Shown one piece after another: positions 49,367 to 52,675 of a stretch of DNA of 64,000 nt. A model generated the notes under the pieces. That model did no database searches, was not told the DNA's origin, and worked only from the letters and a program-made list of their open reading frames with translations. Position 1 is the stretch's first letter. The number at the start of each line of letters is the position of its first letter. The stretch lies in contig CACNWE010000003.1 in the NCBI GenBank assembly GCA_902623995.1, positions 62,001-126,000 of the forward strand, read 5' to 3'. The stretch comes from an uncultured SAR116 cluster alpha proteobacterium. Its GTDB lineage: Bacteria > Pseudomonadota > Alphaproteobacteria > Puniceispirillales > Marisalimonadaceae. The position numbers and the translations under genes were made by a program.

Positions 49367-50758
49367 ATGAAAGATTATTCAATCACAGATATAAAACTTG
49401 CTGAATGGGGAAGAAAAGAAATATCAATAGCTGAGACTGAAATGCCAGGTTTAATGGCATGTAGAGAATTGTTTTCAAAAGATAAACCATTAAAAGGTAC
49501 AAGGATTGCAGGCTGTTTGCATATGACGATTCAAACAGCAGTCCTCATAGAAACCTTAACTAGTCTTGGGGCTAGTGTTAGATGGGCAAGCTGTAATATT
49601 TTTTCAACACAAGATCACGCAGCTGCGGCAATAGCAAAACAAGATATACCAGTTTTTGCAAAAAAAGGTGAAACTTTAAAAGAATATTGGAATTATGTAG
49701 ATCAAATATTTACTTGGTCAGATGATACAGTTGCGAATATGATCCTAGATGATGGTGGTGATGCAACTTTGTACATTATACTAGGCGCTAAAGCAGAAAG
49801 TGGTGAACAAGTTTTACCTAACCCTGCTAATGAAGAAGAAGAGGCTCTTAAATCACAAATTTTATCTAGACTTGAAAGTTCTCCAGGATGGTTCACAAAA
49901 GTCAAAAATAGCATTAAAGGAGTTACTGAAGAAACAACTACAGGGGTTCTTAGATTATATCAAATGGCAGAAAAAGGCGATCTTCCTTTTCCGGCAATCA
50001 ATGTGAATGATTCAGTAACAAAATCTAAATTTGATAATCTTTATGGATGCAGAGAATCTCTAGTAGATGGCATAAGAAGAGCTACTGACGTGATGTTATC
50101 TGGTAAAGTTGCAGTTGTTGCAGGTTATGGTGATGTAGGAAAAGGATCTGCTGCTTCACTTCGTCAAGGTGGAGCCAGAGTGATTGTAACTGAAATTGAC
50201 CCTATTTGTGCATTACAAGCAGCAATGGAAGGATATGAAGTGTGTTCTATGGAAGAGGCATGTTCTAGGGGAGATATATTTGTAACAGCAACTGGGAATA
50301 AAGATGTTATTACTGTGGATCATATGAGGGAAATGAAAGATAGAGCTATTGTATGTAACATTGGTCATTTTGATTCCGAAATTCAAGTTGAGTCTCTTCA
50401 AAATATGAAATGGTCAGTGGTCAAGCCTCAAGTGGATGAGGTTGAGTTTCAAGATGGAAAACGTTTAATAGTTTTAGCAAAAGGAAGATTGGTAAACCTG
50501 GGATGTGCTACTGGACATCCTAGTTTTGTTATGAGTGCCTCTTTTACTAACCAAGTTCTTGCACAAATAGAGTTATGGGAAAAGCCAGAAAGTTATGAAA
50601 ATAAAGTATATACACTGCCAAGACATTTAGATGAAAAAGTTGCTAAATTACATCTTGATAAAGTTGGCGCTACTTTAAGTAAGCTTTCAAACGAACAGGC
50701 GGATTATATTGGGGTCCCAGTTCAAGGACCTTTTAAATCAGACAATTATAGATATTAA
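49367..50758 (+). CDS. ahcY: S-adenosylhomocysteine hydrolase
   Basis: The 463-residue NAD-dependent enzyme splits S-adenosylhomocysteine into adenosine and homocysteine, recycling the product of SAM methylations. Signatures are [25 protein letters not shown] (region), [16 protein letters not shown], the catalytic [11 protein letters not shown], Rossmann motif AGYGDVGKG near residue 250, and the C-terminal DNYRY that reaches the partner subunit. Its place after chvI-chvG is conserved in Alphaproteobacteria even though the PTS genes that usually intervene are absent. AAAGGA precedes the ATG. Confidence 0.98.
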
Positions 50759-50761
50759 TTT

Positions 50762-51255
50762 ATGAAATTGTTACTAGAAATAACGATTAAATCTAAAACT
50801 GAAATGCATAACTTTGGTATACAATTGGCAAAGTTACTTTCGTTTAACGATCTGATTACATTTGATGGCGATTTAGGTGTAGGTAAAACTTTTCTTTGTA
50901 AATCAATAATAAATAACTTAACAAAAATTAATGAAGTTGTAAGTCCTACATTTAATATTGTTCAAACATATCCATTACAAGATGATGAAGAACTCTGGCA
51001 TTGTGATTTTTATAGGATTAATAGTTTTGAAGAAGTATATGAGATTGGTGTTTTTGAGGAGTTAAAAAAAAAATTGTTCTTCTTGAGTGGCCAAAATTTA
51101 AAATCGAATTAAGTCAATTTGATCCTTTGAACCTTAGTATTGAGATTATAAAAAGTAATAAAAGTAATTTATCTGAATACAGAAAAATCTCTTTATCTGG
51201 TTCAAAAAAATGGGATAATAAAATTAAAAATCTAAGTAACTTTTTAGCTTTGTGA
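50762..51255 (+). pseudogene. tsaE: tRNA threonylcarbamoyladenosine biosynthesis ATPase TsaE, frameshifted in an A10 run
   Basis: The first 104 codons give a normal TsaE front: P-loop GDLGVGKT (residues 36-43), SPTFNIVQTY, and WHCDFYRINSFEEVYEIGVFEEL. The reading frame then meets ten A's (51064-51073) and ends early at codon 117 with unrelated residues (LFFLSGQNLKSN). In the next frame the missing family motif appears at once, IVLLEWPKFKIEL, and continues 60 residues to a TGA at 51253. With 8 or 11 A's the product would be about 164 residues, normal for TsaE. TsaE is needed for t6A in tRNAs reading ANN codons and is usually essential. It may be an assembly error, polymerase slippage restoring the frame, or a true loss. 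Confidence 0.85.
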
Positions 51256-51265
51256 GAGCAATAAT

Positions 51266-52675
51266 TTGAATTATGTCTTCTATGATTTAGAAACTACAGG
51301 AAGAAATTCTGCCTGGGATCAAATAATTCAAGTGGCAGCTATACTTACTGACGATAAATTTAATGTGATTGACAAAATTGAAGAGAGATGTCGATTAAAA
51401 AAAGGTTTAGTACCCTATCCTGAGGCAATGCTTGTAAATAAAACATCAGTTGAAATTTTAAAAAATGTGAATTTGTCACATTATGAGTTAATAAAAAAAA
51501 TAGAAACAACATTTAAAAAATGGTCACCAGCTATTTTTGTTGGATATAATTCAATAAACTTTGATGAAGAATTTATTAGAAAATCTTTCTTTAAAACCCT
51601 TTTTGAACCGTATCTAACGCAATTTAATGGCAATAAAAGAGCTGATGTCATTGGCATGACTAGAGCATCTAAATTTTATTTTCCTGATTGTTTAAAAGTT
51701 GGAATTAATGACAAGGGGAATCAAGTTTTTAAATTAGATGTCTTAACTGAACTTAATAATATTTTTCATAATGCTCATGATGCTATGGGTGATGTAGATG
51801 CTACTATAGAAATTGCTAAAATTTTAAGAAAAAATTCTAACAAAGTTTGGAATGCTGGGCTTAAAAATAATAATAAAATAGATGTAGATAACTTCCTAAT
51901 CAAAAATAATATTGTTTGCATGGATGAATATCTTTTTGGTAAATTCAACGTTCATGCTGTTACTTATATTTGCAAGAATCAATTTAATTATCCTCAATGT
52001 TTTGATTTATTACACGATCCACTTGATTATATTGATATGTCTATTAAAGATTTAAAAATTAAAATGAAACAAAAACCTAAATTAATTAAAGAAATTAAAA
52101 ATAATAAAAATCCTATTTTATTAGATTCAAGCGTTATTGATAAAATGCCAGTGTATCAATCAATTGGTATGGAAGTTTTAACTTACAGAGCAGAAATTAT
52201 TAAACAAAGTACTGATTTTAAAAATAAAATCCAAACAATTCTTTTTGAAGAGTACGAGACAAAACAAATGATTAAATCACAGATTGATATAATGCCTGAA
52301 GAAAGTATCTATTCTGGTGGTTTCCCTGATAATCATGAAAAATCCAAAATGATTGATTTTCATAATGCTGATTGGGAAGAAAGATTTTATATTTCAAATC
52401 AGTTTAAAGATGAACGTTATAAATATTTTGCTCATTTGTTAATTTATGAAGAGATGCCTCATGTACTTCCTAAATCTGACTATGAAAATATTCATAAAAT
52501 TATTGCCAATCAGATTTTAAGCACTGATAATCAAAAGTGGAATACAATCCCTAAGGCATACCATGAGCTTGATAATTTACGTGAAGAATATGAAAGACAA
52601 GGTAATGATGAAAAGTTGTTATTCTTAGAAGATTGGGATTATTTTCTACAAGATCTTGAAAAAAAATATCAATGA
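51266..52675 (+). CDS. sbcB: Exodeoxyribonuclease I (SbcB) family protein
   Basis: The 469-residue protein starts with the DnaQ-like exonuclease domain: Exo I FYDLETTGRNSAWDQIIQVAA with Asp7/Glu9, Exo II GYNSINFDEEF near residue 95-105, Exo III NAHDAMGDVDAT near 170-180. The C-terminal half carries ExoI-type features (IYSGGFPDNHEKSKMIDF, then FKDERYKYFAHLLIYEE, corresponding to the SH3-like and helical ExoI-C regions). It should degrade single-stranded DNA 3' to 5'. Start TTG, chosen as the first codon before the conserved strand; the Shine-Dalgarno is weak. It lies where addB-addA is usually found in this neighbourhood. Confidence 0.88.
   Translation: MNYVFYDLETTGRNSAWDQIIQVAAILTDDKFNVIDKIEERCRLKKGLVPYPEAMLVNKTSVEILKNVNLSHYELIKKIETTFKKWSPAIFVGYNSINFDEEFIRKSFFKTLFEPYLTQFNGNKRADVIGMTRASKFYFPDCLKVGINDKGNQVFKLDVLTELNNIFHNAHDAMGDVDATIEIAKILRKNSNKVWNAGLKNNNKIDVDNFLIKNNIVCMDEYLFGKFNVHAVTYICKNQFNYPQCFDLLHDPLDYIDMSIKDLKIKMKQKPKLIKEIKNNKNPILLDSSVIDKMPVYQSIGMEVLTYRAEIIKQSTDFKNKIQTILFEEYETKQMIKSQIDIMPEESIYSGGFPDNHEKSKMIDFHNADWEERFYISNQFKDERYKYFAHLLIYEEMPHVLPKSDYENIHKIIANQILSTDNQKWNTIPKAYHELDNLREEYERQGNDEKLLFLEDWDYFLQDLEKKYQ

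Follow-up and report, generated by a model that had tools for sequence, protein, structure and literature searches.

A conserved ten-adenine run divides tsaE between two reading frames in SAR116 bacteria, with transcriptional slippage as its probable rescue

Organization of the tsaE locus

The window analyzed here is a stretch of 64,000 nucleotides that corresponds to positions 62001-126000 of contig 3 in a 2.08-Mb, 48-contig genome (G000) with an estimated completeness of 89%. On its forward strand, tsaE (50762-51255) is flanked upstream by ahcY (49367-50758), named as an S-adenosylhomocysteinase gene from its translation, and downstream by an exonuclease-like gene (51266-52675) that carries a DLETTG motif and is sbcB-like. 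As only 3 nt lie between ahcY and the tsaE start, the two genes are probably co-transcribed, while the exonuclease-like gene begins 10 nt past the shifted-frame stop of tsaE.

TsaE is a tRNA-modifying enzyme of the t6A pathway that is usually essential, as it is in Escherichia coli. Here, its gene is broken by a run of ten adenines (A10) at 51064-51073, with the EWP motif and the C-terminal third of the protein located in the −1 frame, and this arrangement, including the IVLLEWP-led C-terminus in the neighboring frame, matches the original description to the base. The first A of the run is the third base of codon 101 and the remainder forms codons 102-104 (AAA AAA AAA), giving a putative slip site that reads NTA AAA AAA AAA TTN in the 0 frame. 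This frame (50762-51112) encodes 104 TsaE codons, then 12 non-conserved codons and a TAA (51110-51112), and thus a product of 116 residues. The −1 frame continues from 51073 with ATT GTT CTT CTT GAG TGG CCA (I V L L E W P) and runs for 60 codons to a TGA (51253-51255), and the EWP motif (51085-51093) is thereby absent from the unshifted product. An A11 run would give a protein of 164 residues and an A8 run one of 163, which agrees with the length of about 164 foreseen for either case. Against the Pfam TsaE family (PF02367; cut-off 26.6 bits), the N-terminal part alone scores 90.7 bits and the joined 164-residue reading 105.3 bits, the latter as a single domain that spans the junction (residues 10-133). 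Moreover, the motif set of the family (P-loop, SPTF, HxDxYR, and EWP) is complete in the joined reading, with GDLGVGKT, SPTF, and HCDFYR in the N-terminal part and EWP in the C-terminal part.

Conservation of the split among SAR116 relatives

With a GC content of 30.7% over the 1.92 Mb examined, G000 is a low-GC SAR116 alphaproteobacterium, and its GC content matches that of the streamlined low-GC SAR116 subclade, a group reported to be known chiefly through single cells and to evolve under strong purifying selection (PMC8547437). Its nearest named relatives are SAR116-cluster single-cell genomes. To survey these, the joined TsaE protein was searched against 101 relatives and then against the family, and every site was read; in what follows, g1 denotes the genus of the source genome, g3 its sister genus, and g2 and g4 other, more distant genera. 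Most congeners returned two TsaE matches in two frames. An alignment of orthologues had been suggested as a check for a conserved run of nine to eleven adenines, and this revealed a split with exactly A10, in identical phase and at the identical codon, in 26 of the 29 g1 and g3 copies (24/27 in g1 and 2/2 in g3), with all ten positions 100% conserved among the split copies. By comparison, the same-length conservation of other coding runs of at least nine A's, as judged from three control genes, was 4-29%, and the shared run and phase of the tsaE split are therefore not due to chance. The 0-frame stops of the congeneric copies vary in position (0-12 codons past the run), and the first codon of the C-terminal part is ATT, ATA, or ATG. 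The gene order is also maintained: ahcY and tsaE are adjacent in the relatives with a readable upstream flank, and the exonuclease-gene motif is found 1-41 nt past the stop of the tsaE C-terminal part in 32/32 copies.

The three in-frame exceptions are two copies with A11 (G009 and G018) and one with an in-phase A10 (G032, TTT AAA AAA AAA ATC). Outside these genera, tsaE is intact in g4 and g2 with a run of A8 or less, and other families are without the run. Relatives with an intact frame and no homopolymer had been named as a finding that would refute the original interpretation. The outcome is mixed, though not fatal to it: such run-free copies do exist, albeit in other genera, while all three congeneric in-frame copies retain a long run. 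In a four-gene tree with several weak nodes, the in-frame states (G032 and the G009/G018 group) are nested within the split g1 and g3 copies, the simplest reading of which is one origin of the split at the base of g1 and g3 with at least two returns to frame. Repeated origins are conceivable as well, since changes between A10 and A11 are mutationally easy.

Selection on the shifted frame and integrity of the product

A pseudogene, or a gene under loss, might be expected from the short 0-frame product and from the 13 of 39 congeners with no tsaE match. Nevertheless, the number of missing matches fits genome incompleteness, from which 10.0 ± 2.6 are expected, and the coding potential beyond the run is well preserved. 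In the split copies, the median pairwise dN/dS is 0.165 for the N-terminal part and 0.354 for the C-terminal part read in the shifted frame, as against 0.138 and 0.264 for the respective parts of the intact g2 genes. The shifted frame has no stops, while the other two frames of the C-terminal part contain 5.6 and 10.6 stops per copy. On these measures of sequence evolution, the C-terminal part is under purifying selection in the shifted frame and the gene is functional. With a split that spans two genera, t6A partners that are intact, and a tree from which a signal inherited from very recent intact ancestors is unlikely, we see scarcely any probability of tsaE being a pseudogene. TsaB, TsaC, and TsaD (the last as a 373-residue open frame) are all present in open frames, and support of t6A synthesis together with these partners is the candidate role for TsaE.

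We next considered what the protein would lack if the frame were not shifted. EWP is invariant in the 16/16 natural intact TsaE proteins aligned, and in E. coli TsaE the E108A substitution causes a loss of nucleotide binding and of TsaB-TsaD binding, W109A a loss of ATPase activity, with neither variant retaining ATPase activity (PMC4330362). An alignment-based structure prediction for the TsaE of a natural intact congener (84% identical) gave a pLDDT of 90, and a structure search with this model returned nine PDB matches at E<0.001, all of them TsaE (E-values down to 1.2e-11). Here, the strand at residues 104-109 starts right at the KKK, such that a core strand predicted for the TsaE fold lies at the head of the C-terminal part and the junction cuts the nucleotide-binding fold just ahead of this strand. 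As the EWP motif (needed in E. coli) and the C-terminal strands are both missing, the unshifted 116-residue product is expected to be inactive.

The same structural view bears on whether the two parts could be made separately and reassemble as a split TsaE, with the C-terminal part starting at the AUU, AUA, or AUG after the run. This draws some support from that first codon and from a Shine-Dalgarno (SD)-like GGAG before the run in the window. However, ATT is a rare start, an SD is lacking in most copies, the cut falls within the nucleotide-binding fold, and the purity of the run would be needless. We regard a reassembled TsaE as extremely improbable.

Long adenine runs elsewhere and a second conserved case

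Assembly error had been put forward as the main rival explanation, but is effectively excluded: an identical A10 recurs in 26 genomes, some of them single-cell genomes deposited by two submitters, and long runs elsewhere are in frame. In a survey of G000 (44 distinct A/T runs of at least ten), 24 sense-strand A runs of at least ten are read straight through by open reading frames, six of these being A11 or A12, and four genes are split at such runs (tsaE, ygfA, truB, and amiC). General sloppiness of G000 at long runs is ruled out by these 24 runs read through versus four split. Among 30 A10 loci surveyed in G014 and G022, the sole split is tsaE. In a one-per-genome sample of A runs of at least 11 from 30 congeners, all runs placeable in a coding frame are in frame.

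Three of the interruptions are restricted to one or two genomes. The truB gene is interrupted at A10 in G000 only (C6:126427); all 28 remaining full-length copies from congeners are in frame, and seven genomes among these have an A12 at that site. Likewise, aat (leucyl/phenylalanyl-tRNA protein transferase) is interrupted at A9 in G000 only (C1:6856) and intact in 32 congeners. The amiC gene (N-acetylmuramoyl-L-alanine amidase) is interrupted at A12 in G000 (C35:213); in G013 (C3:129374-130517) it is likewise matched twice, in separate frames, and it is split in these two genomes only. Separately, interruptions at A8 were noted in G000 for lepA (C1:254837), a TIGR03643-like gene (C4:162109), and a luciferase-like gene (C21:8702). 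Apparent splits at the Mnh subunits, fabF/mltG, ruvX/pyrB, and gst/sixA proved from their translations to be two-gene junctions and were set aside. As for the run-length distribution, the 1.92 Mb of G000 contain 310 A/T runs of length 9, 33 of 10, 9 of 11, and 2 of 12; the drop from 9 to 10 is steeper than that from 7 to 8, which suggests that runs of ten or more are purged in G000.

A second conserved case is ygfA (5-formyltetrahydrofolate cyclo-ligase), in which 15 genomes, 14 from one subclade along with G030, share a split by exactly A10 near the start of the gene (codons 9-12); in G000 it lies on C5 near 8520. In three genomes (G013, G034, and G026), the ygfA run is A11 and in frame. Run length in this gene tracks clade. 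All 15 split copies have a pure run, while seven in-frame genomes carry an interrupted one, so purity goes with the split and decay with the intact frame. The ygfA and tsaE sites have A10 in common, with a different surrounding context, and across both genes A10 outnumbers A11 by 41:5 (26:2 in tsaE and 15:3 in ygfA).

These counts also speak to whether A11 is the actual run length in all copies, systematically miscalled as A10. Long homopolymers are error-prone, many of the genomes are from amplified single cells, and selection on the C-terminal part would look alike. On the other side, A11 and A12 runs are called, and are in frame, in G000, truB, ygfA, and the 30-congener sample; two A11 copies of tsaE are themselves called; and ygfA run length goes by clade. 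In fact, even at an assumed miscall rate of 1/3, the probability of 26/28 is about 7e-11. We therefore consider systematic miscalling very improbable.

Transcriptional slippage as the probable means of rescue

From the evidence in the DNA, TsaE is probably made through slippage rescue at the A10 run, at the level of transcription and by the addition of one nucleotide. The chromosomal tsaE would then be a working gene that is one A short, on which RNA polymerase slips, with some of the transcripts gaining one extra A. These A11 transcripts would give the full-length 164-residue TsaE, while A10 transcripts would give the shortened and presumably inactive protein, and the dose of TsaE would thereby be reduced. 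That slippage may yield full-length TsaE had been anticipated, and it offers the best fit to the A10 conserved in 26 of 29 copies, the selection in the shifted frame, and the stimulators that are not conserved. Since transcription slips in homopolymeric A/T runs are reported to be mostly single-nucleotide insertions, which become exponentially more frequent in longer runs (PMC5574713), A10 to A11 is the expected direction. In many genomes, homopolymer runs are evidently selected against at a length of nine (PMC1088944), and in frameshifted endosymbiont genes of Blochmannia rescue comes with about 30% full-length transcripts (PMC3017870). As a point against, the three in-frame relatives show that the split is not obligatory.

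The composition of the run is also informative. AAG makes up 16% of the Lys codons and is found in 19 of 24 conserved-Lys columns, and the three Lys codons of the tsaE run are AAA in every split copy. This purity suggests that slippage is needed, though it is no evidence for A10 being better than A11.

Alternatively, with both DNA and mRNA at A10, the frame could be restored by programmed −1 ribosomal frameshifting at A_AAA_AAA within the run. This slippery heptamer is in the correct phase in all split tsaE copies, E. coli dnaX naturally uses A_AAA_AAG (PMC5009743), and AGGAG/GAGG occurs just 5' of the run in some clade-1 copies, the one in the window included. However, no conserved SD was found upstream of the run (an SD-like motif is present in 10/26 copies, mostly of one clade), and the RNA structure downstream is not unusual in the split copies (mean z of −0.3 to −0.7). 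Moreover, seven A's are enough for a −1 shift, yet ten are invariant, and ygfA shares the A10 and not the context. For the invariance of the ten A's and the stimulators that are not conserved, transcriptional slippage is favored, and we judge the ribosomal route unlikely.

A special form of frameshifting in the run would be a t6A sensor, in which the three AAA codons are read by a tRNA-Lys whose decoding of AAA and hold on the frame depend on t6A37, low t6A raises −1 slippage there, more full-length TsaE is made, and t6A is restored. Such a loop would resemble the feedback of release factor 2. In its favor, tRNA-Lys needs t6A (t6A37) for AAA decoding, and frameshifting is raised in t6A-deficient yeast (PMC4810244; PMC5009743). 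By contrast, the ygfA split is unconnected with t6A and points to a general mechanism, and we allow the sensor only a slight chance. The 25 tRNA genes found by ARAGORN in 92% of G000 include none for Lys, Ile, or Glu, which are probably in the remaining contigs.

Returning to transcriptional slippage, one version of it assigns A10 no benefit: A10 and A11 would be near-neutral here, a deletion bias would hold the run at ten, and interruptions would be removed as slippage is needed. This accounts for the purity of the run and the occasional A11, and the overall excess of A10 is within reach of deletion bias. Conversely, coding runs of at least ten A's are seldom out of frame, as the G000 survey shows, which implies that A10 and A11 are not neutral in general, and A10 exceeds A11 in both tsaE and ygfA. 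We hold this version to be a realistic possibility, at rather less than an even chance. The excess itself could stem from dosage control, or from mutation biased toward deletions in genes whose products are required at low levels, and whether A10 is a selected dosage device or is tolerated because little TsaE is needed appears about evenly balanced.

Comparison with known systems

Frameshifts in long A tracts are usually dismissed as assembly errors or pseudogenes, or put down to decay in symbionts that are confined to their hosts and have small populations. In the present case, a gene essential in E. coli is out of frame by a single base in two genera of abundant ocean bacteria that are free-living and streamlined, with the split copies always at A10, and ygfA as a second conserved case suggests a small set of such genes. 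If slippage holds true, full-length TsaE, and perhaps t6A, would hang on the error rate of RNA polymerase, and annotation pipelines would misread such genes as broken. Neither recoding of tsaE nor slippage in SAR116 came up in the literature searched.

The closest parallels are the poly(A) frameshifts of Buchnera and Blochmannia (Tamas 2008 and Wernegreen 2010, as related in PMC3017870), in which, as in tsaE, an A-run indel affects a selected gene in an AT-rich genome. In that account, the frameshifts are kept between species and the rescue is ascribed to RNA polymerase slippage; tsaE is placed alongside by sequence criteria, with an uninterrupted run of at least nine in an otherwise intact and selected gene and a split kept between species (26 genomes, two genera). 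The original prediction had drawn this same likeness to AT-rich symbionts, and the kind of poly(A) frameshift is indeed the same, though the host differs, being a free-living streamlined marine bacterium (PMC8547437), with one exact A10 in all split copies. Judged in this way, tsaE would belong with the slippage-rescued poly(A) frameshifts, and the novelty lies in the gene, in a host that is free-living and streamlined, and in how deeply the exact run is conserved.

Two products also arise from a coding A run in Thermus thermophilus dnaX (A9 transcriptional slippage, PMC1088944), except that in dnaX reading in frame yields the full-length product and slippage the short one, whereas in tsaE slippage would be needed for the full length. 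In Shigella mxiE (PMC1088944), a one-nucleotide insertion likewise joins two overlapping frames into a working protein, but the run is of U's, the gene is regulatory, and there is no t6A link. The A_AAA_AAG −1 frameshifting of E. coli dnaX and IS elements similarly involves an A run in Lys codons and a −1 frame, but relies on SD and structure stimulators that are not conserved at tsaE. Lastly, TsaE, YjeE, and YdiB (PDB ID: 5np9, 1htw, and 6n9a) share the family, fold, and motifs with the protein described here, though in the clade described here it is coded in two frames.
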